Shown piece after piece: positions 7,213 to 64,000 of a stretch of 64,000 nt of DNA. Below the pieces are notes generated by a model. It was not told the origin of the DNA and did not search any database. It saw nothing but the letters and a program-made list of their open reading frames with translations. Origin of the DNA: Cladocopium goreaui (lineage: Eukaryota; Sar; Dinophyceae; Suessiales; Symbiodiniaceae); contig CAMXCT020003791.1 of assembly GCA_947184155.2 (NCBI GenBank), forward strand, positions 485,162 through 549,161, written 5' to 3'. The position numbers were made by a program, and so were the translations under genes. Within the stretch, counting starts at the first letter, position 1; each line of letters starts with the position of its first letter.

Positions 7213-7230
7213 TGTTTGTAAACACCCTAG

Positions 7231-7468: not shown

Positions 7469-7477
7469 ACGTTTGAA

Positions 7478-24635: not shown

Positions 24636-24676
<41 letters not shown>

Positions 24677-25327
24677 GCTGTTGCTGTTGTTGTTGTTGTT
24701 GTTGCTGCTGCTGCTGCTGGTGTCTAGCTGCGACGCCTAAAAGCGAACCACTCCCAGCGGCAAATGCCCATGGCAGTGAAGGATGGAAAGGTTCCGAAAT
24801 TGCACCGCAAAAATGTCTAACGTAACTTCTGAAACCCATAGAAAATGATGATTTTAGCTACTTTTTCTCCGAGCTGAGACGCTCCTCTGCTGCTGATGCT
24901 GCTGCTGGCTGGTGGTAGCTAGCTGCTGCGCGCTCAAGCGAAACACTCCCAGCGGGCAAATCCCAATGGCAGTGAAGGACGGAAAAGCTTCGAATGGACA
25001 CCGCAAAAATGCCCTAAGTTTAACTTCTAGAAACCCCTAGGAAAATGATGATTGTAGTACTGTTTTCTTCCTTGCTGCTGAAGAAGATCCTACTGCCTGC
25101 TTGATGCTAGTGCTGCTGCTGCAGCGTGCGTGATGTTGTCTAGCTGCGAACGCCTAAAAGTGAACTACTCCCAGCGGCAAATCCCCATGGCAGTGAAGGA
25201 CGGAAAAGCTTCGAAATTGCACCGCAAAAATGCCTAACGTAACTTCTGAAACCCATAGAAAAGGATGATTTTAGCTACTTTGTTCTCCTGCTGCTGAAGA
25301 CGCTCCTACTGCTGCTGCTGCTAGTGC

Positions 25328-25359
<32 letters not shown>

Positions 25360-28300
25360 GTTGCTAGCTGCGACGCCTAAAAGCGAACCACTCCCAGCGG
25401 CAAATCCCCATGGCAGTGAAGGACGGAAAAGCTTCGAAATTGCACCGCAAAAATGCCTAACGTAACTTTGGAACCCATAGAAAATGATGATTTTAGCTAC
25501 TTTTTTCTCCTGCTCCTGGAGACGCTCCTGTTGCTGCTGCTGGTGTCTAGCTGCGACGCCTAAAAGCGAACCACTCCCAGCGGCAAATCCCCATGGCAGT
25601 GAAGGACGGAAAGGGTCCGAAATTGCACCGCAAAAATGCCTAACGCAACTTCTGAGACCCATAGAAACTGATGTGATGATTTTAGCTACTTTTTTCTCCT
25701 GCTGCTGAAGCTGCTGCTGGTGGCTAGCTGCGACGCCTAAAAGTGAACTACTCCCAGCGGCAAATCCCCATGGCAGTGAGGGACGGAAAAGCTTCGAAAT
25801 TGCACCGCAAAAATGCCTAACGTAACTTCTGAAACCCATAGAAAAGATGATTTTAGCTACTTTTTTCTCCTGCTGCTGAAGACGCTCCTGCTGCTGAAGA
25901 CGCTCCTGCTGCTGCTGCTGCTGCTGCTGCTGGTGGCTAGCTGCGACGCCTAAAAGCGAACCACTCCCAGCGGCAAATCCCCATGGCAGTGAAGGACGGA
26001 AAAGCTTCGAAATTGCACCGCAAAAATGCCTAACGTAACTTCTGAAACCCATAGAAAATGATGATTTTAGCTACTTTTTTCTCCTGCTGCTGAAGACACT
26101 CCTGCTGCTGCTGCTGCTGCTGGTGGCTAGCTGCGACGCCTAAAAGCGAACCACTCCCAGCGGCAAATCCCCATGGCAGTGAAGGACGGATCCCTACTGC
26201 TGCTGCTGCTGCAGCTGCTGCTGCTGGTGTCTAGCTGCGACGCCTAAAAGCGAACCACTCCCAGCGGCAAATCCCCATGGCAGTGAAGGACGGAAAGGTT
26301 CCGAAATTGCACCGCAAAAATGTCTAACGTAACTTCTGAAACCCATAGAAAATGATGATTTTAGCTACTTTTTCTCCTGCTGCTGAAGACGCTCCTACTG
26401 CTGCTGCTGCTGCTGCTGCTGCTGGTGGCTAGCTGCGACGCCTAAAAGCGAACCACTCCCAGCGGCAAATCCCCATGGCAGTGAAGGACGGAAAAGCTTC
26501 GAAATTGCACCGTAAAAATGCCTAATGTAACTTCTGAAACCCATAGAAAATGATGATTTTAGCTACTTTTTTCTCCTGCTGCTAAAGACGCTCCTACTGC
26601 TGCTGCTGCTGCTGCTGCTGGTGGCTAGCTGCAACGCCTAAAAGCGAACCACTCCCAGCGGCAAATCCCCATGGCAGTAAAGGACGGAAAAGTTTCGAAA
26701 TTGCACCGCAAAAATGCCTAACGTAACTTCTGAAACCCATAGAAAATGATGATTTTAGCTACTTTTTTCTCCTGCTGCTGAAGACGCTCCTACTGCTGCT
26801 GCTGCTGCTGGTGCTAGCTGCGACGCCTAAAAGCGAACCACTCCCAGCGGCAAATCCCCATGGCAGTGAAGGACGGAAAAGCTTCGAAAGTGCACTGCAA
26901 AAATGCCTAACGTAACTTCTGGAAACCCATAGAAAATGATGATTTTAGCTACTTTTTTCTCCTGCTCCTGGAGACGCTACTGCTGCTGCTGCTGGTGTCT
27001 AGCTGCGACGCCTAAAAGCGAACCACTCCCAGCGGCAAATCCCCATGGCAGTGAAGGATGGAAAGGTTCCGAAATTGCACCGCAAAAATGTCTAACGTAA
27101 CTTCTGAAACCCATAGAAAATGATGATTTTAGCTACTTTTCTCCTGCTGCTGAAGACCTCCTGCTGCTGCTGCTGCTGGTGGCTAGCTGCGACGCCTAAA
27201 AGCGAACCACTCCCAGCGGCAAATCCCCATGGCAGTGAAGGACGGAAAAGCTTCGAAATGGCACCGCAAAAATGCCTAACGTAACTTCTGAAACCCATAG
27301 AACATGATGATTTTAGCTACTTTTTTCTCCTGCTGCTGAAGACGCTCCTACTGCTGCTGCTGCTAGTGTTGCTGCTGCTGCTGCTGGTGGCTAGCTGCAA
27401 CGCCTAAAAGCGAACCACGCCCAGCGGCAAATCCCCATGCAAAAAATGCCTAACGTAACTTCTGAAACCCATAGAACATGATGATTTTAGCTACTTTTTT
27501 CTCCTGCTGCTGAAGACACTCCTGCTGCTGCTGCTGCTGCTGGTGGCTAGCTGCGACGCCTAAAAGCGAACCACTCCCAGCGGCAAATCCCCATGACAGT
27601 GAAGGACGGAAAAGCTTCGAAATTGCACCGCAAAAATGCCTAACGTAACTTCTGGAACCCATAGAAAATGATGATTTTAGCTACTTTTTTCTCCTGCTCC
27701 TGGAGACGCTCCTGTTGCTGCTGCTGGTGTCTAGCTGCGACGCCTAAAAGCGAACCACTCCCAGCGGCAAATCCCCACGGCAGTGAAGGACGGAAAGGTT
27801 CCGAAATTGCACCGCAAAAATGCCTAACGTAACTTCTGAAACCCATAGAAACTGATGTGATGATTTTAGCTACTTTTCTCTCCTGCTGCTGAAGCTGCTG
27901 CTGGTGGCTAGCTGCGACGCCTAAAAGTGAACTACTCCCAGCGGCAAATCCCCATGGCAGTGAAGGACGGAAAAGCTTCTAAATTGCACCGCAAAAATGC
28001 CTAACGTAACTTCTGAAACCCATAGAAAAGATGATTTTAGCTACTTTTTTCTCCTGCTGCTGAAGACGCTCCTGCTGCTGAAGACGCTCCTGCTGCTGCT
28101 GCTGCTGCTGCTGCTGGTGGCTAGCTGCGACGCCTAAAAGCGAACCACTCCCAGCGGCAAATCCCCATGGCAGTGAAGGACGGAAAAGTTTCGAAATTGC
28201 ACCGCAAAAATGCCTAACGTAACTTCTGAAACCCATAGAAAATGATGATTTTAGCTCCTTTTTTCTCCTGCTGCTGAAGACACTCCTGCTGCTGCTGCTG

Positions 28301-29366
28301 CTGCTGCTGGTGGCTAGCTGCGACGCCTAAAAGCGAACCACTCCAAGCGGCAAATCCCCATGGCAGTGAAGGACGGATCCCTACTGCTGCTGCTGCTGCT
28401 GCAGCTGCTGCTGCTGGTGTCTAGCTGCGACGCCTAAAAGCGAACCACTGCCAGCGGCAAATCCCCATGGCAGTGAAGGACGGAAAGGTTCCGAAATTGC
28501 ACCGCAAAAATGTCTAACGTAACTTCTGAAACCCATAGAAAATTAGAAAATGATGATTTTAGCTACTTTTTCTCCTGCTGCTGAAGACGCTCCTACTGCT
28601 GCTGCTGCTGCTGCTGCTGGTGGCTAGCTGCGACGCCTAAAAGCGAACCACTCCCAGCGACAAATCCCCATGGCAGTGAAGGATGGAAAAGCTCCGAAAT
28701 TGCAGCACCGCAAAAATGTCTAACGTAACTTCTGAAACCTATAGAAAATGATGATTTTAGCTACTTTTTTCTCCTGCTGCTGAAGACGCTCCTACTGCTC
28801 GCTGCTGCTGCTGCTGCTGGTGCTAGCTGCAACGCCTAAAGCAACCACTCCCAGCGGCAAATCCCCATGGCCAAAGGACGGAAAAGTTTCGAAATTGCAC
28901 CGCAAACATGCCTAACGTAACTTCTGAAACCCATAGAAAATGATGATTTTAGCTACTTTTTTCTCCTGCTGCTGAAGACGCTCCTGCTGCTGCTGCTGCT
29001 GCTGGTGGCTAGCTGCGACGCCTAAAAGCGAACCACTCCCAGCGGCAAATCCCCATGGCAGTGAAGGACGGAAAAGCTTCGAAAGTGCACTGCAAAAATG
29101 CCTAACGTAACTTCTGGAATCCATAGAAAATGATGATTTTAGCTACTTTTTTCTCCTGCTCCTGGAGACGCTACTGCTGCTGCTGCTGGTGTCTAGCTGC
29201 GACGCCTAAAAGCGAACCACTCCCAGCGGCAAATCCGCATGGCAGTGAAGGACGGAAAGGTTCCGAAATTGCACCGCAAAAAGGTCTAACGTAACTTCTG
29301 AAACCCATAGAAAATGATGATTTTAGCTACTTTTTCTCCTGCTGCTGAAGACGCTCCTACTGCTAC

Positions 29367-29398
<32 letters not shown>

Positions 29399-29686
29399 GT
29401 GGCTAGCTGCGACGCCTAAAAGCGAACCACTCCCAGCGGCAAATCCCCATGGCAGTGAAGGACGGATCCCTACTGCTGCTGCTGCTGCTGCTGCAGGTGC
29501 TGCTGCTGGTGTCTAGCTGCGACGCCTAAAAGCGAACCACTCCCAGCGGCAAATCCGCATGGCAGTGAAGGACGGAAAGGTTCCGAAATTGCACCGCAAA
29601 AAGGTCTAACGTAACTTCTGAAACCCATAGAAAATGATGATTTTAGCTACTTTTTCTCCTGCTGCTGAAGACGCTCCTACTGCTGC

Positions 29687-29724
<38 letters not shown>

Positions 29725-30640
29725 GTGGCTAGCTGCGACGCCTAAAAGCGAACCACTCCCAGCGGCAAATCCCCATGGCAGTGAAGGACGGATCCCTACT
29801 GCTGCTGCTGCTGCTGCAGGTGCTGCTGCTGGTGTCTAGCTGCGACGCCTAAAAGCGAACCACTGCCAGCGGCAAATCCCCATGGCAGTGAAGGACGGAA
29901 AGGTTCCGAAATTGCACCGCAAAAAGGTCTAACGTAACTTCTGAAACCAATAGAAAATGATGATTTTAGCTACTTTTTCTCCTGCTGCTGAAGACGCTCC
30001 TACTGCTGCTGCTGCTGTTGCTGCTGCTGCTGGTGGCTAGCTGCGACGCCTAAAAGCGAACTACTCCCAGCGGCAAATCCCCATGGCAGTGAAGGACGGA
30101 AAAGCTTCGAAATGGCACCGCAAAAATGCCTAATGTAACTTCTGAAACCCATAGAAAATGATGATTTTAGCTCCTTTTTTCTCCTGCTGCTGAAGACGCT
30201 CCTACTGCTGCTGCTGCTGCTGCTGCTGGTGGCTAGCTGCAACGCCTAAAAGCGAACCACTCCCAGCGGCAAATCCCCATGGCAGTGAAGGACGGAAAAG
30301 TTTCGAAATTGCACCGCAAAAATGCCTAACGTAACTTCTGAAACCCATAGAAAATGATGATTTTAGCTACTTTTTTCTCCTGCTGCTGAAGACGCTCCTA
30401 CTGCTGCTGCTGCTGCTACTGAGGCTGCTGCTGCTGCTGCTGGTGGCTAGCTGCGACACCTAAAAGTGAACCTCTCCCAGCGACAAATCCCCATGGCAGT
30501 GAAAGACGGAAAAGCTTCGAAATGGCACCGCAAAAATGCCTAATGTAACTTCTGAAACTCATAGAAAATGATGATTTTAGCTACTTTTTTCTCCTGCTGC
30601 TGAAGACGCTCCTACTGCTGCTGCTGCTACCTTTTCCTCC
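24630..30640. repeat. CTG/CAG satellite, main family, about 32 units
   Basis: Tandem units of about 105-230 bp (mean near 185 bp). Each has a conserved core (CTAGCTGCGACGCCTAAAAG, then CCCAGCGGCAAAT, CATGGCAGTGAAGGACGGA, TGATGATTTTAGCTACTTTT, CTCCTGCTGCTGAAGACGCT) and a variable (CTG)n run of 4-20 copies. Length changes fall mostly in the CTG run. Truncated units that jump from GTGAAGGACGGA to TCCCTACTG occur at about 26186, 28373, 29465 and 29785. On the minus strand the core reads MGFRSYVRHFCGAISKLFRP then SLPWGFAAGSGSLLGVAA and a Gln run, usually broken by indels between units. The array begins with a (GTT)n run at 24636. Confidence 0.92.
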
Positions 30641-30645
30641 TGCTG

Positions 30646-30680
<35 letters not shown>

Positions 30681-31760
30681 GCTCCTTCTGTTCAAATGGC
30701 AGCTCCCGGATGGGAAAACATCATGGCAGTGAAGGACGGAAAGGCAGCAAAATTGCGCCCAAAAAGTGCTTAATGTAACTTCTGAAACCAATCGAAAAGA
30801 ATGATTTTAGCAATTTTTTCCTCCTGCTGCTGCTGCTTCTGCCCCTGCTGCTCCTTCTGTTCAAATGGCAGCTCCCGGATGGGAAAACACCATGGCAGTG
30901 AAGGACGGAAAGGCATCAGAATTGCGCCCAAAAAAGTGCCTAATGTAACTTCTGAAACCCAAAGAAAAGGCCTCCTGCTGCTGCTGCTCCTGCTCCTGCT
31001 GCTCCCTCTGTTCCAATGCTAGCTCCCGGATGGGAAAACCTGCTGCTCCTTCTGTTCAAATGGCAGCTCCCGGATGGGAAAGCACCATGGCAGTGAAGGA
31101 CGGAAAGGCAGCAAATTTGCGCCCAAAAAGTGCCTAATGTAACTTCTGAAACCCATAGAAAAGGATGATTTTAGCTGCCTTTTCCTCCTGCTGCTGCTCC
31201 CGCTGTCTTCTGTTCAAATGGCAGCTCCCGGATGGGAAAACACCATGGCAGGGAAGGACGGAAAGGCAGCAAAATTGCGCCCAAAAAGTGCCTAATGTAA
31301 CTTCTGAAACCAATCGAAAAGAATGATTTTAGCAATTTTTTCCTCCTCCTGCTGCTGCTGCTTCTGCTCCTGCTGCTCCTTCTGTTCAAATGGCAGCTCC
31401 CGGATGGGAAAACACCATGGCAGTGAAGGACGGAAAGTCAGCAAAATTGCGACCAAAAAAGTGCCTAATGTAACTTCTGAAACCAATAGAAAAGGATGAT
31501 TTTAGCTACCTTTTCCCTCCTCCTGCTGCTGCTGCTCCTGCTCCTGCTGCTCCCTCTGTTCTAATGCTAGCTCCCGGATGGGAAAACACCATGGCAGCGA
31601 GGGGCGGTAAGGCATCAAAATTGCGCCCAAAAAATGCCTAATGTAACTTCTGAAACCCAAAGAAAAGGATGATTTTAGCTACCTTTTCCCTCCTCCTGCT
31701 GCTGCTGGCGCTGGTGTTGGTGGTGGTGGTGGTGCTGCTGCTGCTATTGCTGAAAGAAGA
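30641..31760. repeat. CTG satellite, diverged subfamily
   Basis: Six to seven units share the TGATTTTAGC, TAACTTCTGAAACC and CATGGCAGTGAAGGACGGAA parts with the main family. The middle is replaced by GGCAGCTCCCGGATGGGAAA, and the CTG run is mixed with CTC. The boundary with the main family is sharp near 30630. On the minus strand the unit reads SLPWCFPIRELPFEQKEQQE. Confidence 0.88.
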
Positions 31761-50060: not shown

Positions 50061-50298
50061 ACAACCAACATCAATCAACCACAACCAGTGGAGACATAAG
50101 GCGCAATCTTGTTGTCACAAGATGATGGTAAAATGGCGATGTTATTTTTTATGTAATGGATTGCAATGGTTCATAATGGTGCATAATTACACACATAAAC
50201 GAATAACATATTTGATGAATGCTTGCGAATCGCATAATAACATATTGGGAAATGATTCCAAATCAAGTACTCATTGGTATCAACACATATCATTGATA

Positions 50299-51620
50299 TC
50301 TTTGTTGATGGTGATGGTTTCTCTTCTGTGTAGTTGGGAATGATCCATCTTGATGGGTCTGAAATGATGTTCCCATAGCATTTGTGGTGAATATTTCTGG
50401 TTTCAGGATGTGGTAAACCATTTCAGACCCATGAAGATGAGGAAAAGATAATTTATCTGGCATATCTTCTGACATTCTATCTGGCATATCTTCTGGTTTT
50501 CTATCTGGCATATCTTCTGACATTCTATCTGGCATATCTTCTGACATTCTTTCTGATATGTTGATGGTGATGGTTTCTCTTCTGTATAGTTGGGAATGGT
50601 CCATCTTGATGGGTCTGAAATGATGTTCCCATAGCATTTGTGGTGAATATTTCTGGTTTCAGGATGTGGTAAACCATTTCAGACCCATGAAGATGAGGAA
50701 AAGATAAGAAAAACATATTGGGTCACATCACATAATTACACATCCAACCCCAAAATACCTGGAAGGTTGGAATGATTCCAAATCAAATACCCATTGGTAT
50801 TAACACATATCATTGATATCTTTGTTGATGGTGGTGGTTTCTCTTCTGTATAGTTGGGAATGGTCCATCTTGATGGGTCTGAAATGATGTTCCCATAGCA
50901 TTTGTGGTGAATATTTCTGGTTTCAGGATGTGGTAAACCTTTTCAGACCCATGAAGATGAGGAAAAGATAAGAAAAACATATTGGGTCACATCACATAAT
51001 TACACATCCAACCCCAAAATACCTGGAAGGTTGGAATGATTCCAAATCAAATACCCATTGGTATTAACACATATCATTGATATCTTTGTTGATGGTGATG
51101 GTTTCTCTTCTGTGTAGTTGGGAATGGTCCATCTTGATGGGTCTGAAATGATGTTCCCATAGCATTTGTGGTGAATGTTTCTGGTTTCAGAATGTGGTAA
51201 ACCATTTCAGACCCATGAAGATGAAAATATAATTTATCTGGCATATCTTCTGACATTCTATCTGGTATTCTATCTGCCAAATCTTCTAGCATTCTATCTG
51301 ACATTCTATCTGGCATATCTTCTGACATTCTATCTGGCATATCTTCTGGTATTCTATCTGGCATATCTTCTGACATTCTATCTGGCATATCTTCTGACAT
51401 TCTTTCTGATATGTTGATGGTGATGGTTTCTCTTCTGTATAGTTGGGAATGGTCCATCTTGATGGGTCTGAAATGATGTTCCCATAGCATTTGTGGTGAA
51501 TATTTCTGGTTTCAGGATGTGGTAAACCATTTCAGACCCATGAAGATGAGGAAAAGATAAGAAAAACATATTGGGTCACATCACATAATTACACATCCAA
51601 CCCCAAAATACCTCGAAGGT
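50299..51620. repeat. Five-copy repeat with internal inverted repeat and minisatellite
   Basis: A unit of about 145 bp (GTTGATGGTGATGGTTTCTC at its start) occurs at about 50302, 50559, 50824, 51088 and 51414. Each unit holds a 21-bp inverted repeat: CATCTTGATGGGTCTGAAAT on the left and CATTTCAGACCCATGAAGAT on the right, one mismatch, loop about 57 bp. After the first and fourth units a 24-bp minisatellite (TCTGGCATATCTTCTGACAT) is expanded. After the second, third and fifth there is instead a linker with ACATATTGGGTCACATCACA. The open frames are products of the repeat. Confidence 0.9.
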
Positions 51621-51667
51621 GGAAATAATTCTATCTGGCGGAAAAAATGCAAGGCGAGCATTTTGCA

Positions 51668-51799
51668 ATGGAAGCTGTCAGGATGCGTCGTGTTAATCAG
51701 AGCTTTTTCAAACTGCCCTCGGTGGAATGGTCGAATGGCAAGATTTGGATATTTGGGATTGGTTTATTCAAAGTTGTGGGTAGACACAGTTCAGGATAA
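51668..51799 (+). CDS. Short ORF or exon, 43 codons
   Basis: ATG at 51668 (just after TTTTGCA) opens MEAVRMRRVNQSFFKLPSVE then WSNGKIWIFGIGLFKVVGRH and ends TAA at 51797. The composition is natural and unlike the surrounding repeats. It could be a first exon, an internal exon of the preceding gene, or a small protein. No family is recognised. Confidence 0.35.
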   Translation: MEAVRMRRVNQSFFKLPSVEWSNGKIWIFGIGLFKVVGRHSSG

Positions 51800-52079
51800 C
51801 TCTGGGGTAAGTTGGTTTTACTCGAGTCGAGAAAAATCAGGTTTTTTAAACTTACCCCCTATGTTAGGAAATCTTAAGGCACCAGCGTGTGACAAATATT
51901 TATTCATGTTTATTGTATAACCCAAAAATTGTTAATTTGAATTCCATCTGCATGTAAAACAAATAGACTAATACTAAATCAATATAGTCTCGAAATAACC
52001 ACAATATAACCCTTAAATAAGAGAATATAGGAGATATGCTCCTGAGGGAAGGTACTTCAAGCTTTGATGTTAAGCTTAC

Positions 52080-52300
52080 TGCCGGAGATGCCGGGCCCAG
52101 GGGTCTAAAGTGAAGTTACCTCTCTGAGCCTTCCAGTATCATAGCTGTGTTATGTGCAAGTTCCCGGACCCCTAGGTAAGGTCTAGCATGGTTCCGTTAT
52201 GTTTCTGGAATCACCTAGGTATTTATCATTCCAGACCCCACTTTAGACCCTAGATCCAGGGTCTACAATGAAGTTTCCTAGGGTCTGGGGATAGTAGTTG
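52080..52300. repeat. Degenerate direct and inverted repeats
   Basis: GGGTCTAAAGTGAAGTTACC (52095) and GGGTCTACAATGAAGTTTCC (52268) are direct copies. CCCACTTTAGACCCT (52235) is inverted relative to them. The layout resembles the remains of a small non-autonomous element, but no target duplication is seen. Confidence 0.5.
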
Positions 52301-52382
52301 AGAGGATAGTGAAGTTATATAAGTTATTGAATCATGTTTGTCATAGTTGTGTGGCCATCCTGACCGGTTTATTGCCTTGCAG

Positions 52383-52436
52383 AATCAGCAAGCCAAGGGA
52401 CTTGTCCAGATTTGCAGTGTGGGGTTCCAGATTTAG
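52383..52436 (+). CDS. Possible short terminal exon
   Basis: After a TTGCAG acceptor the frame NQQAKGLVQICSVGFQI ends at TAG 52434-52436. It may be the last exon of the gene upstream. The following 52437-52763 shows no other gene, only intergenic DNA before the next start codon. Confidence 0.3.
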   Translation, partial: NQQAKGLVQICSVGFQI

Positions 52437-52763
52437 GTGGAGGGATTCTGCAGCCTTTGCTCAGAAGCGGAGCAAGTGCATGGCAGTATAATAGTATAAT
52501 CAAATAAAGTGCATAAATGGACAATGTCAATGTCATGCAAGCATTTTTTGCCTGAGGTTGTTAACAAGAGTCAAGAGGAATTAACAACATTTGGAAGTAT
52601 GCAGATCGCAGACCACACGAACAGAAAATGCGGCACTTCCGGCAAATCGAATGCCAAATACAAGTTTCATGATGTTTGAAGGTGTTTCATCGAGTTTTAG
52701 CATGCTTCTCTTTTTTTGCATGTCTTTGACGTTGACTGCGAAGAATTTTCCCAACCATGCCCC

Positions 52764-55700
52764 ATGCCATGGCTGGGGCTGGCACTTTCTATGGCATTCG
52801 CGGTAGTGGCAGATCCGAAGCTGGCTGTGAACAGATGGAGTGGTTGTGCTGAGGACTCGGGGGGACTGGGGGGCCGCAGGAGAAGACTGAGAAGAGTGTT
52901 GTTTTTTTTCTGTATTGCTGGGACATGCTGGGGCACGAGTCAGTATTCAGTGCACACAAGACCACTGGAGGCACTGGATGATAGCATGTACTGAGAACAA
53001 CCGAGAGTACATGATGAGTTCGGAACGGCTTCTCCGCAGGTGATATCTGGCAGCCCTTTCCCCTTCTACTTTGAACCGTGTGCCACTGCTGAGTGGGAAG
53101 TGCTGCTCGACAGAGACGGAGTGCAACTAGCACAAGAAGCACAAGAAACGCAAGAAGCGCAAGAAGCACTGCAGAGTGCCGCAAGGGCCGCAAGTCCTCC
53201 CAGTCGCGCCAAATCTTCGGTGAATTTGTCGGAGATCACAGCCGATCTGAAGCTCCCCGAGGATACCAGCTTGGAGCAGTGGGAGCAGTGTTACAACCAT
53301 TTTTGCAGAGGTTTTGTAGCAAAGGTGCTTCGAAACGGTAATCTCAAAAGATGTTGAATCAACATATTCTTTTTGTGGCTTTAGTGCATTCAATCCTATA
53401 GATCTCTCAAGACACTGTGGACTATACCTTTTGAATCCTTTTGATGCAACCCCACATGATCTCGGATATTCTGAGAGGCTGAGAATCTTTTGGGCTGCAC
53501 AGAGCACAAATTGAACTTCGGTGGGAGCATTGTGCTACTCCAAAGAGGAGGTTGTTACTTTTCGTGGAAGGTCGGGTCGGGCGCAGCCAGGGGCGCAGCT
53601 GGGGCGCAGCCGGGTGCAGTCGTTGCAGTGCTGTGGTTAGTTGATGTTAGTTCATATTCTAAGTGGTGTCGAACAAGTGCGAGGACTTCAGGTGTCAAGT
53701 CACTTCAGGTGCGAAGTCTTTGAGGTTTACCAAATTTACCAAGGCGGTTTAGCTTCGCCAATTTCAGGTGCTACTTGCGGAAGCAGCAGGAGCTGGAGCC
53801 GTCCTCATCTTTGATACTGCACCGTTCCAGGTAACTGCCATCCTTGCAGTTCCAGGGCCATTTGAAAATCCCAGGAGTTGGGTGCGAGGCGTCACAAAAT
53901 CTGGAAAGAACGAAAACTTCGCAATGCTTTGAAGGTCCTGTTCTAGCGAATTCTACCCTAGCATCCCTAGCTTTCTTACCTTCGTTTGCAGCTGACTTTG
54001 GCAGGATTCCTGGCTATTTGATCTCGCGTTCTCAAGGTGAAGAACTGCTTAAAAGGTTGGATCCTTGCAATAGAATTCAGATATTCAGAACAAGCTTTCC
54101 CACGGCTCTGGAGTTTCTGCGTGTGATAATACTATATATGCGTGCCCAATGTCTTGCAATTGGAGTGCAAGCATTGACTCTTTTCCAATCCGTTTCAGAA
54201 AAACACAGGAGCTGCTTGGCTTTCAACTCAGGATGGTGGAGAAGAGATCCAAATCCTGTGCAGTTGGAGTGCTGTCGATGTGTGGTTTAATCTTCCAGAG
54301 CATTCTCTCGAATTAAACGACAGTATCATCTTGCACAACTATGGCGACGAAGACATGCCATGGGTTGTTGATATGATTGACAACAATGCCAGCTTCGAGA
54401 CTGACCCGTTCTACTCAGCGCGTGTGTTTGGACCCGACCACGCAACAACTTTCAACGGAACGGAGATGAAGAATATCACAGTTTTTAATTCGTCCGTCCA
54501 TGACTCAGCTTCCACTCAGCTTCCTGTGTTTATTCTAAGTTCTTTATCCATCCATCTTAGTGCACTTTGACAGGAGAATGGAGGTAGCCCTATGGAATAC
54601 ATCTGTCTTACATCCACAAAATAACACAAAAACCTCCAGTTTGGGAACAGACTTAAATCTGTTCAGCAGAAGCTGAGGCGCTGGACGATGACTTCCATCT
54701 CCTCAAGCTGCCATTTCGATTCCCCCATTATCTCCAATTTAAAGACAAAGTCTTTGTGTCTGCAAATGGAGTCTTGGCTGTTGAATGATGTTGAATATTG
54801 TTGAATGCTGTTGAGATCAAGAAGGGGCCCCAACACATTCAGCTTGTATGAGTGGTGGACCGCTGTGAGGATTGTGTGAGTCAAGGCCGTTTTTCGACTT
54901 CGCAAAAGCTTCTTTCAGAAAAGGCTGAAAGATCAGTACGTCAGTACATTGCATTCATTTATCAAATTTGTCACCAAATATCTGTCAGAAACATTGTTTG
55001 AACATTTGATCAGCTTGATGGATGTTTTTCTGAGGCGTTTTGGTGTTTGATCCTGTCTTCTCCAACATCGTTGGTTCAATCGCCGACTCTGTTGCTCCTA
55101 CAGCCCTCATTGCACCGCTGTGGGCCGATTTGTTTGGTGGCGCTATTACTGGACAAGGCGCTGCACATGTCACAAGTCACTCCAAATCGCGGAAGCGAAC
55201 AGATTAGAAGATGCATCAAGACACATCAAGACGCATGGTTGTGGCATTTTTTGGAGCAATGGTAACAAGATCATTTTGAAATATTTTGAAGCTGCGCGCG
55301 TTAATGTGATGTGCCGCTTTGGTCAGAAGAGACAAGTCAATAGAGTCAATAGAGTCCCTCAGTTCCTTATGGTTCCTCAGAGTTTGTTCCTGTTGAGGTG
55401 ACTCGCGACGCTTGGTTCTACGCTTTGAAGGCTTCTGGTTGAAACCAACAGGTCTTTTGACAGAGCCTTCAGGTCCCTTCACCTTTGACGTGTGGTTGTT
55501 TGATGATGGTGAGATCCATATCCATTGGGAAGCTCGACAAACCAAAGTACTGTGCAGTTCCTTTTTGGGTGGAGCCTCTAAAGTCCAAAACGACCGAAGC
55601 AAATGGAATGGATATGTCTGGGAAGCAAGTCTTGCCTTTTGTCTCCTGTTCTGGCATGCATCAATTTCGACAGTTGGACCGAGAGTGAACACATTCTTAC

Positions 55701-57909
55701 TAGTACTTGTGAAATCTGAATACGTATGATTTACTTTAAGTCTTCTAAGTCTTCTAAGTCTTGGATTGTTTCCAATATTGTTTCCAATATTGTTTCCAAT
55801 TTGTTTCCTTGGTATTTTTGGTTTCCGCGGCAAGTTTCAGACTAAGGAAACTTTCCCTCACAGTGGCTGGCTGGAACTGGTGGAGATTGGCCTGGAACCT
55901 GGCAGTGGAGCTAAAGCACTGCCGCTCAAAGAGTGGGGACTCCAAGTCGATACTCAAAACACTCCAAACGAGACTCAAAGCACTCCAAATCTGACAGATT
56001 TCACAGACCCTTTCAGATCCAGATCTCTCAGCGCAGTTCTGGTGCCATGGGTGAAACTTTCGAGAAGTACCGATGCATTGCCTCCAAATCAATTCCTCAC
56101 GTTGAACATGACGCTGCCAAAGACTCCCTCTGAAACCACTGCCTGGCTCTTTTTCTATGCACGAAAAAGTCTGGGCACTTGGCATCCACGACGAAACGTG
56201 CGACTCCTCCAACGCACCTTTCGGCACGTGTGGGTTCTCAGTGGCTGGGACGGTGGCTTGCACAGTGGGAGCTGTGCCGCCAATGGCTTGGTCCGACGCA
56301 GGACTCGTCGATGTGTTGGAAGTGACGGAGCGGAGTACGATGAGAGCTACTGCATTGGCAGCTGCGAAGACATCACATTGGAGCAGAATTTTGATTATCC
56401 AGTCAGGCACGTGTGGAAAGATGGCTACAATAATCGATGTGAGGACTACCGAGCTTTGTCTTTTTGCAACGAGACTGGCTATGGACCCAAATGGCAAAGT
56501 TGGTGGGGAAGATTCGAAGACTGGGTTTCAGGTGGCCCTGGTGCCGGTGAAGCCTGTGCCATGGCGATTTCACAATGATTTTACACGAGATTCGGATTCT
56601 TTTGCATTTTACCTTATTCTTACTTTGCCAAACATAAAACAATGCAAACAATATGCAAACAACATGCAAAAGACTGTCAACCTCTAATTGTTGCAAACCT
56701 TGCCTAGGTTGTCTTTGTGGTGGAGGCCGTGTATCTGAACCTTCTGGAGCCTCTGGAGCCTCTGGAGCTCCAGTTTTGTCTGAGAAGTGTCCCAGTGTGA
56801 AGTGCCCCGTCAACTCAGTGGGCGTCGATGTGCTGAGTGGATGCAGTTGCCAAGCTGGTTTTGAAGGAGAGGTGATACCTTCCGACCAATCTCCATATTT
56901 CCGAGGACAATGTTCTCCAGTCGCCTGCCCACTTCATTCATTTGGAGAACACGTAGCTGACGGCTGTGTTTGTGACGCGGGCTACATAGGTAGCATCATC
57001 CCGTCCAAGGCAGAACCTTTCTTCATAGGCAGCTGTAGGGAAGCGTCGACAAGTGCAAGCAGCTCCGTCACGGCCACAAGGACTGGAACAAGAACCTCCA
57101 CTGCCTCCACTTCAACTACCTCTTTGCATTCGTTGCATGAGTTCACTACAGGCATTCCATACACTTCAGCGAGACATGAAACTGTGAGCTCAACTACCTC
57201 CTCAATATCTACCAGCACAGAAAGCACAGCAAGAACTATGTACATGGGAACGTTTCCAGAGAGACGAAGTGTCCAAGTCTCAGCAACTGCTACCACGACG
57301 AGCGAAAGTCCACTCAGCACAATTGACTTTTGGACATCGACTTCGTTCGCGTCGTTCGCGTCGTTCACCTTCACATCGAGTTCCTCAAGTTCAACTGATT
57401 CCATGGCAAATAGTCCCACCTCGGAAAGCCAGACCAGCACCGAAGCCAATCTGCCATTTCCAGCACTCGACAACTCAACGCAGACGAAGTCAAGCACTGG
57501 GACAACAACTACAAGAACTATCACGGTTGGAAACAGATCGACTTCGTCCACCCCTACAACCATTACCGCGCTGAGTCCAGAAGATTCAGAGTACCGACAG
57601 ACACATCCGCAAAGCTCTTCAACATCTACAGCTCAATCAGCCCAATCTACCCAGAGTCAGACAAGCACCCTGACGTTTCCTACTGCAGGATTTTCCAGTG
57701 CTTTCACAACATCAACCAGCTCGACATCCACGACATTTCAAACATTTACGACATCAAAGGTGGAAACGATGGAGCTTGTGAACGAAGCAGGTGCTAATGT
57801 AGAGCTTTCTGGAGCCTATGAACCACCCAAAGCAGCCTTTGCCTCCACAAGCCGCAAGGTGCCTGGGGATTTCATGTGGGGTAGTCTCAATAGCCTTGAT
57901 AGATCTTAA
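52764..57909 (+). CDS. PA / nidogen-like / TSP1-like / mucin-like surface protein, copy 1
   Basis: ATG at 52764 starts a signal peptide (MPWLGLALSMAFAVVADPKL). Exons placed with the copy at 61071: 52764-52853; 53040 to about 53320 (PCATAEWEVLLDRDGVQLAQ); about 53476-53570 (SIVLLQRGGCYFSWK); 53768-53874 (LLAEAAGAGAVLIFDTAPFQ); 54005-54059 (IPGYLISRSQGEELLKRL); 54232-54495 (EIQILCSWSAVDVWFNLPEH, YGDEDMPWVVDMIDNNASFE); 54678-54768; 55035-55136; 55398-55546; 55841-56555; 56708 to about 57858 or 57909. Residues about 100-200 are a PA domain (RGGC-F-SWK, GA-A-LIFDT, IPGYLIS). A nidogen-like beta domain follows (FPHYLQFKDKVFVSANG, VFDPVFSN, ALIAPLWADL), then a TSP1-like segment, Cys-rich repeats and a Ser/Thr-rich region. 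It is predicted to be secreted or on the cell surface; binding partner unknown. I recognise the domains, not a named family. Confidence 0.75.
52854..53039 (+). other. GA-AG intron 1 of copy 1
   Basis: The exon ends RWSGCAE (GCTGAG); the intron begins GACTCGG and ends TCCGCAG; the next exon begins GTGATATCTGG. In the paralogue at 61071 the same place is uninterrupted (RWSGCGE followed directly by VTSDDAP). No GT donor near 52854 restores this frame. Confidence 0.7.
53571..53767 (+). other. GT-AG intron inside the PA domain, copy 1
   Basis: It splits FSWK from VLLAEAAGA with donor GTCGGG and acceptor TTTCAG. In the second copy the coding sequence is continuous (FSWKVVLAEEAGA). The intron holds a GGGCGCAGC(C/T)G repeat. 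Confidence 0.75.
54769..55034 (+). other. GA-AG intron in the nidogen-like domain, copy 1
   Basis: The exon ends VFVSAN plus one base (AATG); the intron begins GAGTCTTGG and ends TTTCTGAG; the next exon GCGTTTTGGTG completes NGVLVFDPV. The second copy is continuous (SCNGALIFDPV). Confidence 0.68.
55841..56555 (+). CDS. Exon with TSP1-like and Trp/Cys-rich segments, copy 1
   Basis: Follows the exon 55398-55546 in phase 0 (donor GTACTG, acceptor TTTCAG). It encodes GWLELVEIGLEPGSGAKALP, a WHPRRNVRL strand, then SGWDGGLHSGSCAANGLVRR followed by RTRRCVGSDGAEYDESYC, which fits a degenerate thrombospondin type 1 repeat (Trp, then Cys, then R-R-R-T-R-R-C). Next comes VWKDGYNNRCEDYRALSFCN then GPKWQSWWGRFEDWVS, a Trp/Cys-rich unit ending in GEACCLCGGG across the next intron. 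The same order is found uninterrupted at 63300-63905. It ends at a GTGCCA donor after AGCCT. Confidence 0.8.
56556..56707 (+). other. Intron whose 3' part is copied downstream
   Basis: GT-AG intron between EAC and CLCGGG. Its sequence from TTTTACACGAGATTCGGATT onward is related to 57991-58091. Confidence 0.7.
56708..57909 (+). CDS. Cys-rich repeats and mucin-like Ser/Thr region, copy 1
   Basis: The exon begins by completing ACCLCGGG, then a Gly/Ala/Ser linker, then two similar Cys repeats: CPSVKCPVNSVGVDVLSGCS with CQAGFEGEV, and CSPVACPLHSFGEHVADGCV with CDAGYIGSI; the C-x-C-x2-G-[FY]-x-G ends are EGF-like. From about residue 130 of the exon to its end it is more than half Ser/Thr (for example SSITSTS-type strings and TTTTRTITVG), a likely O-glycosylated stalk. 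The frame stops at TAG 57907-57909, but AAG|GTGCCT at 57859 could be a donor leading to the hydrophobic segment near 58250. Confidence 0.75.
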
Positions 57910-57990
57910 TAGCCTTGGGCCTTGATACCTGTCATATCTGATATGGAGATCAACGAACCGCAAGAAACATGTTCCTAAGAGCACAACAAT

Positions 57991-58362
57991 GCTTTTACAC
58001 GAGATTCGGATTCAGCCTTATTCTGTTCCTTTGGAGTCAAAGATAAAACCATGCAAAAAACTGTCATCCTCCAATTGTTGCTTGCCAAGGTTGCAGCAAT
58101 GGTGACTCAAGGCATTTGGATGGGGTTGGGGGAAGTATATGGAAGTATGGGAAAGTGCATCCCAGAATTGGTAGACAGGAACGGTCAAAAAGCGGCCTTT
58201 GTGTTTTCAATCTCGAAAGCTCTCAGAACGATTGATCCAGGCTCAGATGGAGGGCCTTCGACATCAGCGCTGATTTTGCTTCTGCTCATTTCGACGCCTT
58301 GCTTCGCCCGAGCCAAAGACCAAACCGAAGATCCCTGCAATCTGCAGAGTAAGACATCCTAA
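57991..58362 (+). CDS. Possible C-terminal exon with membrane segment
   Basis: 57991-58091 resembles the intron at 56556-56707 and ends CTTGCCAAG, so it may act as an intron 3' end. The following frame reads GKCIPELVDRNGQKAAFVFS, later DGGPSTSALILLLLISTPCF and ARAKDQTEDPCNLQ, with a donor (GTAAGA) at about 58349 or a stop at 58360-58362. The hydrophobic stretch could anchor the mucin-like protein in the membrane. An ATG at 58051 would give a separate 103-residue ORF; I prefer the exon reading. Confidence 0.4.
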   Translation, partial: AFTRDSDSALFCSFGVKDKTMQKTVILQLLLAKVAAMVTQGIWMGLGEVYGSMGKCIPELVDRNGQKAAFVFSISKALRTIDPGSDGGPSTSALILLLLISTPCFARAKDQTEDPCNLQSKTS

Positions 58363-58469
58363 ACTGTCCTAAACCTTCTGAAACTATCTGAAGCCTATAT
58401 CATCCTATATCTAGTCAGTTTCAATGTGCTATTGACAAGCTCACATTCTCTGAAGCATTCTGAATCCGG

Positions 58470-58960
58470 CTCCTCTGAAGTCCTTTGAGGCGTGCCTTTG
58501 TGGTGCAGGTCGACACTTGCTTGCAAGAAAGGCGGGCTTCTCATCGCCAAGCTGTCTTGCCGACACATGTATAGAATTTTCATGGAAAACACATCTGAGA
58601 TATGAAGATAATTGAAGATATGTGAACTGAATGCCCTCGTAAGCTTTTTTATTTACCTGACATATGTTGGCATGGCCATGTTTTGCTTGTGCCGAGAACA
58701 ACGATGTAGGCCAAATCGGCGGCTGTGCACCCGGAGCCCCCGGAGCCTTCCGAGCCAAACCCAGCGTCAGAACCCTCGGAACCGTCAGAACCGCACGTGC
58801 GAATCGTGCGAATCGTGCGTCCTGATTGGGATGCACCGGATGCACCGGATGCACCTGGCCGACATTGTGCTCCTGTAACTGTGCGTGCGGCAGTGCATGC
58901 AGAGAAGAAGCGCTCTGATCATGTAGAAATATCAGACATGTGAAGTTCCGATCTTTCACC
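58470..58960 (+). pseudogene. Possible relic of a third copy
   Basis: 58479-58500 encodes EACLCGAGR, close to the EACCLCGGGR junction of the first copy, without the upstream TSP1-like part. At 58720-58920 a frame holds PEPPEPSEPNPASEPSEPSE and later GRHCAPVT, resembling the linker and QCSPVAC of the Cys repeats. No continuous protein can be built, so this may be a decayed fragment or chance. Confidence 0.27.
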
Positions 58961-59008
58961 TTGAACAATCCTCGCGGAAGGGAATCGTGGCAGCTTGAAA
59001 TGACAGCT

Positions 59009-60593
59009 ATGGCTCAAGAAGGGCTTAAGCGGCTTAAGCCGAGTGAAACAGCAAACATCACACCTCATTTTCTTAGCATCAAAGCCGTGCAGTTTTGAGC
59101 CATCGCCCAATTGATTGATTTTGCTGGCAAAACCCAGCTCTTGGCAAATGTTCATTTAAAAGCCACCCCCAGTTTGGATGGCGTGGGAATCTCAGCCTGT
59201 CAAAGACGCAGGTCCGCCAATGTTCCTTGCCTTGTTTGCTCCTCCCCTTGCCTCAAAAGACTAACAATTTCAGAAGCAAACAAACTTGTGTCAGTTGTGT
59301 ATAGCCTAGCTCACAAACTTTGAACATGTTTCGATCGCTGTCCAGTGAAAAGTCGAGCATTTTGGTACTGGCAAAGCACATGCCAGAATGACTCGTAAGA
59401 GAATGAAGCAGAAGGGAAAGAGAGCAACATGCGTGGTTTGTTAGACATCCTTGAATCATCTTGAATCAATTCAGTCATGCAAGACCAATTTGGGAGAAAA
59501 TGCAAAGCCAGAACCCTCAGTGTTGAAAATGAGGACACTCGCCTGTACACAACCTCCACTCCCACCCCAGCTAACAACTCTGCAGTTTTTAAATCATGGT
59601 GTTTGTTGAAAACCACGTGAAATGACTTCATCTTTGAGTTTCAGTTTTTATGTTTTTTAATGTCAGCTTTTTACAATTTTTTACAGGTAGTTCTAACAGG
59701 TAGTTCTGGAATGTTTCGCAGAGATTGCCTTGCGGTGGGGTTTCCTGGCTGCAGCAGGCCATGAGATCCGAGAGATCCGAGATCCAAGGGCCGGACACAG
59801 ACACAGATCAAGCATCAGGATCATCAGGATCAGGACTCGCCAAGAGAAAGCAGACCTTCGCGAGATTTCATGGCAGTATCAGATATAGTCAGGTATAGTC
59901 AGATATACCAGGCCTAGTAGAGCAATGCTGGAGCAAATTGACCCAGAATTCAGCTGGGACATCCTGGGAACCTTGAACATCCTGGAAACATAATATAGAC
60001 ATTGGCTCAAGTTTTCGAAAGACTATGCGGGCTTCCAGTTAAGAAGTCCAAAGTAAGGCAGTATCACGTAAATGCCCAGTTGTTCGAACCTGAAGCCTTT
60101 TCAAGGCCTAGTAGAAGTGTCATGAGGCGAAACTGAAACAAGGCATACAAGGCCATGGCTCAAACATCTGTATCCATCGACCCACGGAGTTGGTCATCCA
60201 TCCGGGTTGGGGGTTTGATAAGTTTGAGATATTTTGAACCACACTCATCTGACCCTCAGCAGTTTTGCCTTTGCACAAATTAGTAGAGATGAACAGATGA
60301 ATGGTGCTGCTCTGTTTGTTATTTGAAGTCCTTGCGTTGCATCAAAATCATTTGCAGTTGTAGCTGACTACTTGCTCCAGCTGTAGCAACATGGCTGCTA
60401 TGGAGCCTTACCAGCCGCACCATGTGCGGCCTCCGTTGCGAGCAAAGGCTGACAGATGTGGCAGTCCTTCCAGACGAGGCGCTGACCCACTTCAGCCATG
60501 GATTTCCCCAGCAACAAAGAGCCTACAACGGATTCACTGAATCAGAGAAAGTTATCCGACGTATCCATACGTATCCGACATTGTATAAATGAA
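59009..60593 (+). CDS. Multi-exon gene between the PA copies, unknown
   Basis: Exon candidates: 59009-59092 (ATG at 59009; MAQEGLKRLKPSETANITPH then FLSIKAVQ), about 59123-59323 (GKTQLLANVHLKATPSLDGV then GISACQRRRSANVPCLVCSS and LVSVVYSLAHKL, TGA 59321), 59722 to about 59800 (EIALRWGFLAAAGHEIREIR after TTTCGCAG), about 59921-59990 (RAMLEQIDPEFSWDILGTLN), and about 60391-60593 (CGLRCEQRLTDVAVLPDEAL then THFSHGFPQQQRAYNGFTES, TGA). All are on +, with natural composition and intron-like spacers. No domain is recognised; one gene or two cannot be decided. Confidence 0.4.
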
Positions 60594-61070
60594 TTCAACA
60601 TGAACCCTTCTGACCCTGTTGTGCAGCCAAGCTGTGTCAGGACTTTGGAGACCTGCCTTGGCCACTGCTACAGTCTTCTGGTCTAGGTGCATATGGACGG
60701 AGCTTGCTGCCGAATGCTGCCGATCGGCGATGTACTTTTCAAAAGTTCTGACGATGTTTGAAACATTTTGAAACTCGAGACACCTGTGCAATTGATAAAC
60801 TGAAGGTACCAACTTGGCTGAATGAAACGTCTTGAGTCTTGATGCAAATATTCGTGACATTACCGGATGCTTTCAAGTCTTTGACTCTTGAGAAGTTGAT
60901 TTTATGAAACGTTTGAACCAAACGTGCTTTCAACATCTTTCAAATTAGCGTCAACGGGAACTTCACTGGCAAATCACCAATGACTAGTGTGCTCAGCGAC
61001 TCTGTCTGATAGCTATCACAACTGGACATGGTAGCTATATGTAGCAATCAACACTTGTACAGCAGATGAC

Positions 61071-64000
61071 ATGCCATGGTTGCACTGGTTGCACTTGCAG
61101 CTCTTGCTGGTGGCGGTGCTGGCGGATCCTGAGCTGCTGACAGATAAATGGAGCGGATGTGGTGAGGTGACGTCAGATGACGCGCCTCTCTTTTTCTCCC
61201 CGTGTGCCACGTCGGAGTGGGAAGTGCTTCTCACCGACACGATGGCCACGCAGAAAAAGCAGAGGTGGGACCTGAGGGTTTCCGTCCAGTTCGATCAGTT
61301 CGGTTTCCCTGGAAGTTTTTTGCAAGCCGAACTGGAAGTCGTTGTCATATGACACATATGACACCCAAAATGATGCAACAAGATGCAACAAGGCATCATG
61401 TCGCAGCCAGGAACACAACAGCACTGCTTCGGCTTCCACAAAGTGACAATCTGCAAGGATGTAGTCCACATCCCAGCTCACACTTTGAGAATAGGATCGC
61501 GCTTATCGAGCGAGGACAGGGATTGATTTGGATGTTTGGATGAAATGACTGCTTTGACTTGGTTTACACTTGTTTGCCATATTGGCAGGCGTAGTGAATC
61601 ATTCAATTGAAACGCATTGACGGAACACGCAGTTGGTGTCTTCCAAAAGCAGCAAACTTACCATTTGATGATGGGATGATGAGAGGTGTAGACCAGTGTG
61701 CTCAGTCTGCTCCAATGTCATTGTGTCATTACGCGTGTTTCCAAAACGTTGGAGGAAGCTGCTATTTTTCGTGGAAGGTAGTGCTGGCTGAAGAGGCTGG
61801 CGCTCTGGCTGTCATCATTTTCGACACTGTGGATCCTCAGTCCACGGCGGTCCTTGCCATTGCCGGGCCATTTCAGAATCCAAGGACCCCTTCGGGCCCC
61901 GTCAGACTGTCAGACTTCAGGTTTTGTCTTTCCATGTTTTTCCCCAAGTTGGATGCTACAGACTTGTATCATCTTGTATCATTTTGTATCTTGAACTGTC
62001 CTGACTTGTTGATTGTTGATACATGTTGACAGATCCCGATGTCGAGCCACCTGAAGGATTGCGGCCTACTTAATTTCGAAGGCAAAAGGTCAAGACCTAG
62101 CGGCACGTCTCGTTCCGTGGCAGCATGCGTAGAAGCGGCCTCAACCTTGTGTCCGCAAACACAATAAAGATCGTTAAAGATCACAGATCCATAAATGGTG
62201 CACATATATATATATATATACACGTATATATATATAAAATATTAATAAATTATAATAAATTATAATATAATATTCAAATCCATAATGACGCAAGGCATTC
62301 AAGGTCAGGGCCTTCTCTGTCTGGCTGCCTAGGAACTCGGAGGCGACATTGAGGTCGTGTGCAGTTGGAACCCAGTGGAGGTCTGGTATGGCTTGCCAAA
62401 TACGTCAAGCGAATTCAATGACACTCTGACCCTGGAAAATTATGGTGATGAGGACTCTGCGTTGCAAAATGCTAGCGTGAACAGAGTTGGTTCCATGATT
62501 TCCACTTGATTCTTTTTCTTGCTGTTGAAACCGTCACTAACATGTTGTGACACCTGCGAACTGTGAGACTCACCCTTTTGTGATGCTCACAGTGCTCGGA
62601 GTGCGCAGGACATGCGCTGGGTCTTGGACGTCATCGATCACAACCGGACTTTCGAAAGAGATCCGTTCTACACGGCCCAAGTGCTGTCAGCCTTCGATGC
62701 CGAGTCCTTCTACTCCTTTGAAGTATTGGACCTCACTTCCTTTAACGGTTCGGTAGCTTGCCACAAAATGATGTCTTTTTTAAAACGGTTGAGAAATGTT
62801 GAGAATCAAATAAGGGATGTGTGGGACATTGCGTATTTAAATTGAGTGCTGTTTCGATGTGTCATGCAGCATTGCACGTCATGCTTCCAAGGTTCAGCTA
62901 GATGATGATGCTGAACTCCTACGATTGCCTTTTGTGTTCCCTCACTACCTGCATTTCTACGAGGAAAGCTATGTCTCTTGCAACGGTGCCCTGATTTTTG
63001 ACCCTGTCTTAGACGAATTCACAAGACAGGCAGCAGTACTTGGTTCTGGCAAAGGACCGCATGCGGTGCTTGCCGCGATGTGGGGAGACTTGCTATGCCC
63101 TGTGGGCTCCAAGATTTCTGCACGAAAAGCAGAAGACGTGATAGCAGTCCGTTTTGAGGGACTTCGTCAAAAAAGTGATGTGAACCTGGCAAATTTGACC
63201 TTTGAAGTTCGCTTGCACAGTGATGGTCGGGTCCTGCTTTTGCTGGAAGATTTTCCAGCGAATGCCAGCGCACTCTCTCAGATCCAGGTGGGTTTGCAAC
63301 CTGCCACAGGTGCTCGTGCCTTGAGTGTGGACAATTTGCCATGGTCAACTGGACCACCTTTGGCCGTTTCCTTCACGCCTTGGCTGATGTTGGAAAATCT
63401 GACGAAGTATTCGGTGCCTCCAAATGAATCGGTGACGTTGGGTCTGGTTTTTGAACGTCAAGATGACCTCTATGGTTGGCTTTTCTTCTACGCAGAGAGA
63501 AGTATTGGCAGCTGGCACCCGAGAAGAAGCGTTCGCTTCACTCAACGTGTGTTTCGTTACTTTTGGATTCTTGGTGCATGGGATGGCGGTATGCATAGTG
63601 GCGTGTGCAAAACGGGCTTTGTGCGACGGAGGAATCGCACATGTGCTGGTAGTGACGGTGACGTCTATGATGACAGCTTTTGCATTGGCAGTTGCATGGA
63701 TCAAGATCCAGTTGTTTACTGGGACTATCCCGAAAGAAGAGTCTGGAAGGATGGCTACAACAACGAGTGTGAGGATTATCGTGTCTTGGACCTTTGCCGA
63801 GAAGATGGTTATGGATCGAAATGGCAGTCCTGGTGGGGAACCTTCAGCGACTGGGTGACCGCTGGCTTAGATGCCAGTGCTGCCTGCTGTCTCTGCGGCG
63901 GTGGCACAACAACTCCTGCCTTACCTCAGGTCGAGGAAAACTGCCCTAGTGTCACCTGCCCAGCGAACTCTGACGGCTTCAACGTTTTGGAAGGCGCAGT
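61071..64000 (+). CDS. PA / nidogen-like / TSP1-like surface protein, copy 2 (partial)
   Basis: ATG at 61071 gives a signal peptide (MPWLHWLHLQLLLVAVLADP), then ELLTDKWSGCGEVTSDDAPL and CATSEWEVLL, all matching copy 1. Exons: 61071 to about 61340; 61407-61514 (LPQSDNLQGCSPHPSSHFEN then RIALIERG); 61755 to about 61872 (SCYFSWKVVLAEEAGALAVI then IFDT); 62032 to about 62085 (IPMSSHLKDCGLLN, the end of the PA domain); 62333-62452 (IEVVCSWNPVEVWYGLPNTS); 62609-62752 (DMRWVLDVIDHNRTFERDPF); 62892 to beyond the window. The PA signature (GC, RG-x-C-x-F-x-x-K, A-x-x-AGA-x-A, IP) is clear. Four introns of copy 1 are absent from the last exon. The gene is cut at 64000 before any mucin-like part. Confidence 0.75.
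61515..61754 (+). other. GA-AG intron in the PA domain, copy 2
   Basis: The exon ends ALIERG minus two bases (CGAG); the intron starts GACAGGGATTG and ends CGTTGGAG; the next exon GAAGCTGC gives ERG-SCYFSWK, matching QRGGCYFSWK of copy 1, which is uninterrupted here. No GT donor gives this reading. Confidence 0.7.
62200..62280. repeat. AT-rich microsatellite
   Basis: (TA)n with CACG interruptions, then AATAAATTATAATA units, in an intron of copy 2. Confidence 0.85.
62453..62608 (+). other. GA-AG intron, copy 2
   Basis: The exon ends YGDE (GATGAG); the intron starts GACTCTGCG and ends GTGCGCAG; the next exon starts GACATGCGC. The result YGDE-DMRWVLD matches the continuous YGDEDMPWVVD of copy 1. 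GAC occurs on both sides of the intron, so the exact cut could shift by three bases. Confidence 0.7.
62892..64000 (+). CDS. Long uninterrupted exon, nidogen-like to Cys-rich part, copy 2
   Basis: After CCAAG the frame stays open for all 1109 bases to the window edge, the longest open frame in this part. It reads VQLDDDAELLRLPFVFPHYL, SYVSCNGALIFDPVLDEF, AVLAAMWGDL (nidogen-like), LANLTFEVRLHSDGRVLLLL, a strand-rich linker, SWHPRRSVRFTQRVFRYFWI, AWDGGMHSGVCKTGFVRRRN then RTCAGSDGDVYDDSFC (TSP1-like), VWKDGYNNECEDYRVLDLCR, KWQSWWGTFSDWV, AACCLCGGG and CPSVTCPANSDGFNVLEGA. Each block has its partner in copy 1 exons 54678-56708. The frame has no stop inside the window. Confidence 0.82.

Follow-up and report, generated by a model that had tools for sequence, protein, structure and literature searches.

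The window, that is, the whole stretch of 64,000 nucleotides of Cladocopium goreaui DNA that was analysed, is the end of contig C3791 and contains two paralogous genes, A and B, with their introns (Table 1). The PA domains of both genes exceed the Pfam cut-off. From position 53478 on, the nine spliced exons of gene A form a single open frame, the sole stop of which is at its end. This frame was built with the donor at 55158; the later use of the donor at 55176 adds 18 bases and leaves the frame unchanged. Gene B is open over 457 residues across two introns, runs off the end of the contig, and continues on contig C490. The C-terminus of gene A (window 57040-57870) is a long Ser/Thr-rich tail, preceded by cysteine-rich stretches; these features suggest a secreted or surface protein.

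Table 1. Genes A and B and their introns in the window. A slash marks the splice junction; ranks are those given by the splice-site model among the frame-open pairs.
Feature	Position	Strand	Junction or remark
Gene A	52764-57911	+	PA-domain protein, PF02225, E 1.8e-10
GA-AG intron 1 of A, absent in B	52854-53039	+	GAG/GACTCG..CCGCAG/GTG
GT-AG intron of A, absent in B	53571-53767	+	rank 1/61; open frame
GA-AG intron of A	53875-54004	+	moderate support; rank 2/21
GA-AG intron of A	54060-54231	+	moderate to good support; rank 1/30
GT-AG intron of A	54496-54677	+	position and phase match B 62753; rank 4/14
GA-AG intron of A, absent in B	54769-55034	+	ATG/GAGTCT..TCTGAG/GCG
GT-AG intron of A, absent in B	55176-55397	+	rank 1/6; donor uncertain
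GA-AG intron of A, absent in B	55529-55846	+	not in the original prediction; rank 1/79
GT-AG intron of A, absent in B	56556-56707	+	protein score 304
Gene B	61071-64000	+	paralogue of A; PA domain, E 6.1e-11
GA-AG intron of B, absent in A	61515-61754	+	GAG/GACAGG..TTGGAG/GAA
GA-AG intron of B, absent in A	62453-62608	+	GAG/GACTCT..GCGCAG/GAC
GT-AG intron of B	62753-62891	+	position common to A 54496; rank 1/23

Contig C490 carries a second copy of the locus. Its positions 200330-213845 are 99.5% identical to positions 50476-64000 of the window over 13.5 kb, and for positions 52700-64000 the identity is 99.8%, the differences being 4 mismatches and 17 gap positions. The donor and acceptor contexts are identical in this copy at all 12 modelled introns. 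This copy probably reflects a double assembly of one locus, or else a very recent duplication; therefore, it is no independent witness for the introns. A search of the genome (1.166 Gb in 6202 contigs) with the last exon of B as the query gave no A/B paralogues beyond A, B, and the C490 copies. Repeats are observed elsewhere in the window. A large imperfect repeat array, with spacings of about 160-800 bases (mostly about 200) and CTG/CTC-rich stretches, occupies positions 24664-31726. The repeats at 50191-51599 are nested, with 12-base TCTGGCATATCT-like units within copies about 260 bases apart, and those at 7223-7474 form an array of AAACCCTAAAGA-like units of about 11-12 bases, which we take to be reminiscent of a degenerate telomere repeat.

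At 52854, 54769, 61515, and 62453, the protein is continuous in one paralogue and interrupted in the other. The original prediction took these interruptions as introns starting with GA and ending with AG; its coordinates and letters are both correct for the four breaks, and AG/GAC is indeed found at the donor in three of them. The protein of the paralogue without the interruption served as the reference for aligning the interrupted one, and every possible intron was scored with no preference for any splice dinucleotide. In this donor-unconstrained alignment, several junctions are tied for the best score: 11 at 54769, 6 at 61515, and 6 at 62453. At these three sites, GA-AG stands out as the one tied junction that ends in AG. 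At 54769, the best GT-AG and GC-AG junctions were each 41 score units lower, and AA-AG was 15 units lower. The deficits of GT-AG and GC-AG were 19 units each at 61515, where GG-AG was only 2 units lower, and 18 and 12 units, respectively, at 62453. At 52854, the best junction, which does not end in AG, scored 155, and the scores of GA-AG, GG-AG, and GC-AG (52848) were 147, 141, and 136, respectively. GA-AG was thus not chosen by the protein alignment alone at this site, and the comparison is indecisive here because the lengths of A and B differ by one residue at this point. The claim that the GA-AG break is the only one restoring the conserved residues is therefore too strong: since ties exist and 52854 is indecisive, it needs an AG acceptor to be assumed, plus further evidence at 52854. 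What stands of it is that GA-AG is the sole tied junction ending in AG at three of the four sites.

The donor classes of this genome were derived from two control genes. Prp8, a conserved spliceosome protein, was identified on contig C4179 through a match to the Pfam family PROCN and was aligned with unconstrained donors and a bonus for AG acceptors only. The guide was the human protein; its matches past about residue 1660 were noise-like and were not used. The donors of the 69 introns inferred were GC in 24, GT in 22, GA in 16, and CA, CT, and TA in one each, and four were ambiguous. The set of 62 introns used below excludes these four, one of which is a GA-AG intron with two options ending in AG, and the three with CA, CT, or TA. 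Of the 62 G[TCA]-AG introns, 60 have G after the acceptor, and a spliced stretch of 372 residues with 15 junctions gave a gap-free alignment to the solved human Prp8. In CDC48 (contig C658), 19 introns were inferred and 5 were dropped (3 from the end where the alignment is poor and 2 with two options ending in AG, one of which is GA); the 14 kept have GT in 7, GA in 4, and GC in 3. The GA share in these two genes, which are a small sample of the genome, is near one fifth (16/62 in Prp8 and 4/14 in CDC48).

On the donor side of the 62 Prp8 introns, position +1 is G and position +2 is T, C, or A. Further downstream, C or G is found at +5 in 57 introns, G at +8 in 46, and A or G at +9 in 53. The introns on C4179 and C658 show a donor pattern that extends beyond six bases and often reads GNNNCTTGG.

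A weight matrix for the donor and the acceptor was trained on 76 introns of Prp8 and CDC48 and applied to the window, where the frame-open G[TCA]..AG pairs (donor GT, GC, or GA) in the ranges scanned were ranked as candidates. The GA-AG pair ranks first at all four sites, whether or not the +2 position is ignored. At 52854, it is first of 65 candidates with 18.1 bits, the next having 9.8 bits, and its donor (8.6 bits) is in the top 0.15% of the G[TCA] sites of the window. Thus, where the protein comparison is indecisive, the independent splice-site model decides for GA-AG. At 54769, GA-AG is first of 2, and no frame-open GT or GC candidate is present in the ranges scanned. At 62453, it is first of 21, with a donor of 6.5 bits. 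At 61515, it is first of 39, the best GC and GT donors having ranks of 13 and 22, respectively; the runner-up is a GA donor at 61512, which is 0.3 bits lower. The donor motif of 61515 is weak (1.5 bits, matched by 20% of the G[TCA] sites of the window), and the predicted GA-AG junction is carried at this site by the protein evidence rather than by the donor motif.

Including these four, 12 introns were modelled in the window, with AG required and AG/G favoured; introns lying between 53300 and 53478 in A, and between 61260 and 61413 and between 61911 and 62332 in B, were left out of this set. All 12 have an AG/G acceptor, as the modelling required for AG and favoured for AG/G. GA donors were found in 7 of the 12, which is above the share in the control genes (16/62 and 4/14) and the published share; this surplus may be an effect of small numbers. 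Two weaker GA sites that had also been proposed, 53875 and 54060, fit the model with the ranks in Table 1. For the intron at 53875, the GC donor at 53857 ranked first and was rejected, as it would remove PFENPR, which is present in B as PFQNPR. For the intron at 54060, GT at 54056 was outside the ten best frame-open pairs, and the best GT, at 54037, had a rank of 8. The intron at 54496 is weak in the model, and its assignment therefore rests on the conservation of position and phase with the B intron at 62753. At 55176, GT replaced GC 55158 on the basis of the splice model; the protein alignment, which is weak here, slightly favours GC 55158.

For the intron at 55529, the protein scores were 81 for GA-AG, 75 for GC-AG, 69 for GT-AG, and 83 for CA-AG, and that of the best junction without AG was 86. 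At 56556, GT-AG is the sole junction ending in AG among the tied best by protein. The splice model chose GT 56541, 15 bases upstream, which would remove conserved residues and was rejected. As a result of the GT-AG introns at 53571, 55176, and 56556 and the GA-AG intron at 55529, the paralogue-specific introns are a mixture and not all of the GA type. They would have been gained or lost after the duplication that gave A and B.

The donor-free alignment (at 52854 only together with the splice-site model), the splice-site model, the open frame of gene A, and the donor classes of Prp8 agree with one another, and the reading of the gaps as GA-AG introns of the dinoflagellate type, as originally proposed, is upheld. 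The segments are very probably spliceosomal introns with GA donors, a donor class known in dinoflagellates. Junction positions rest on homology and the splice-site model, and donor classes on the control genes; from the sequence, we infer the actual removal of the segments from RNA. In this genome, genes would be broken by any gene finder that accepts only GT and GC donors.

An alternative is that splicing takes place at GT or GC donors close by, and that A and B differ there in a few residues. The GC donors at 52848 and 62459 cost 11 and 12 units, respectively, relative to GA-AG in the protein comparison, which is equivalent to one small indel. However, the donor at 52848 scores -6.6 bits, whereas the GA donor at 52854 scores 8.6 bits; the corresponding values at 62459 and 62453 are -6.8 and 6.5 bits. 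Both GC donors were rejected. The lack of a frame-open GT or GC candidate at 54769 in the ranges scanned and the low ranks of both kinds at 61515 also disagree with the use of such donors, which is very unlikely. Decay of one or both genes, by which the segments would be disrupting insertions that are not spliced, seems even less probable. This reading might find some room in gene B between the PA domain and the next exon (61911-62332), the segment left out of the modelled set. Against it, the nine exons of A stay open up to one stop at the end, B is open over 457 residues, both PA domains are above the Pfam cut-off, and the same signals are present in the control genes. The AG/G acceptors of 12 of the 12 introns point in the same direction, within the limit that AG was required and AG/G favoured in the modelling. 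The U12-type donor is [AG]TATCCTT, which the donors of the GA introns do not match.

The snRNA genes were found at C5084:1-20000, where U1, U2, U5, U4, U6, and SRP RNA genes are repeated in tandem, with 39 of 39 matches on the same strand. All six U1 copies read carry ACTTACCTG close to the 5' end, and four of them reach the Rfam gathering score; ACAGAGA is present in each of the seven U6 copies read. No GA-adapted snRNA was present among these six U1 and seven U6 copies, which belong to one cluster. Since the U1 and U6 copies read are canonical, recognition of the donor seems to depend mainly on (A)G/G, along with loose downstream preferences at +5 (C or G), +8 (G), and +9 (purine). Pairing with the canonical U1 5' end does not account for these extended preferences. 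Position +2 would be free among T, C, and A, though not G, and the ordinary spliceosome would tolerate this variation, as judged from the sequence. The segments would then be spliceosomal introns with GA donors and AG/G acceptors in a genome where GT, GC, and GA donors coexist.

The identity of the donor is associated with position +2 of the exon that follows (exon +2). In 88 introns tabulated from Prp8, CDC48, and the window, A is found at exon +2 in 22 of 27 GA-donor introns and in 12 of 61 others. The respective values are 13/16 and 10/46 in Prp8, 4/4 and 2/10 in CDC48, and 5/7 and 0/5 in the window genes. It should be mentioned that the association was noticed in Prp8 and tested there afterwards. 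CDC48, which was added later, and the window serve as the check; the check in the window is affected by the partial choice of its introns with a model that scores exon +1 to +3. G is found at exon +2 in 1 of the 88 introns, compared with 31 of 130 after AGG inside the approximate Prp8 coding sequence. The donor and the exon match at +2 in 49 of 88 introns, against 29.5 expected. No excess of this match is observed in the GT and GC introns alone (27, against 25.0 expected). At +3, there is no excess over all 88 introns (25, against 21.9; p 0.24); of the 47 introns with an upstream exon ending in letters other than AG, 17 match, with 11.4 expected (p 0.05). At +4, a weak excess is seen (30, against 22.2; p 0.04).

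From these values, we lean slightly toward the view that GA donors in this genome do not vary freely with GT and GC: they are found mostly where GA begins the next exon, and exon +2 avoids G, as does donor +2. On this view, either donor +2 would have been copied from the insertion site at the gain of the intron, or GA donors would require A at exon +2 for splicing. Rapid exchange of C and T at +2 could hide the match in the GT and GC introns. If the association is general, the donor mixture of dinoflagellates would be tied to intron insertion or to a splicing requirement. It was not found in the available parts of the literature searched; Roy et al. 2023, which is said to treat dinoflagellate donor motifs and introner elements, was outside that search.

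Copying from the insertion site leads to the idea that the GA introns arose from introner elements (mobile introns), with the donor supplied by the target-site duplication. This origin is doubtful at present, though several observations fit it. A at exon +2 accompanies GA donors, and G is nearly absent from this position, in the proportions given above. In Symbiodinium microadriaticum, the 4-bp duplications of introners are reported to supply the 5' splice site (PMC9860276), and an inverted repeat of 8 nt lies close to the two ends of the window intron at 55529. On the other hand, intron 54769 is single-copy: the genome search gave itself, the C490 copy, and one 38-base match. Inverted repeats of at least 8 nt near both ends are absent from four of the five GA introns examined (of 7). 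In addition, a duplication is poorly matched by the lack of excess at +2 in the GT and GC introns and at +3 overall and by the weak excess at +4. Among the 49 offsets at which complementary intron ends were sought in Prp8, the best z was 1.9, which is no excess compared with shuffled pairing. Because 54769 is single-copy, inverted repeats are few, and the duplication match is poor, an introner origin is not evidently recent. The GA introns may have an old origin of this type.

The spliceosomal introns of Symbiodiniaceae with GC and GA donors are reportedly described in Shoguchi et al. 2013. Published tables agree with the statement of the original prediction that such donors are known in dinoflagellates. 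Cladocopium goreaui has GT in 36.6%, GC in 43.6%, and GA in 19.8%, with AGG in 96.1% (PMC9412976). Table 2 of PMC10666404 gives GA shares of 23.8% for Prorocentrum cordatum and 0.1% for Amphidinium gibbosum; in four more columns, which are, from the context, Polarella and Symbiodiniaceae, the share is 17.4-19.8%. AGG is 79.7-97.1% in the five GA-using columns. Other papers review GC and GA donors with AG/G acceptors in Symbiodinium minutum (PMC4083563) and mention annotation pipelines altered to accept GA donors (PMC8045281, PMC7245778, PMC6123633).

The present introns can be compared with three known systems. Non-GT donors are common in the hyper-variable non-canonical introns of Amoebophrya A25 and A120 as well (PMC7789003). 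However, U1 was not found in these strains, GC/GA-AG introns make up less than 3%, and the majority of donors belong to other kinds, whereas here U1 is present and the donors are nearly all GT, GC, or GA. Dinoflagellate introners (PMC9860276, PMC7789003) share with the present introns the AG/G flanks and a donor that possibly derives from the insertion site. They differ in that 54769, the sole intron searched here, is not multi-copy, that inverted repeats near both ends are seen in one of five GA introns examined, and that a duplication is not clear past +2.

The closest likeness is to the GC/GA introns of Symbiodiniaceae, which have the same G[T/C/A] donors, the same AG acceptor followed nearly always by G, and the same tandem snRNA cluster. 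There is no essential difference between the two, although the junctions were obtained here from the comparison of paralogues and homologues, and not from RNA. A further point is the link between GA donors and A at exon +2, which was not seen in the available parts of the published accounts and may be new. The donor mixture, the AGG acceptor, and the snRNA cluster fit with Symbiodiniaceae in these general features. The introns of the window are most likely further cases of an established dinoflagellate intron class.
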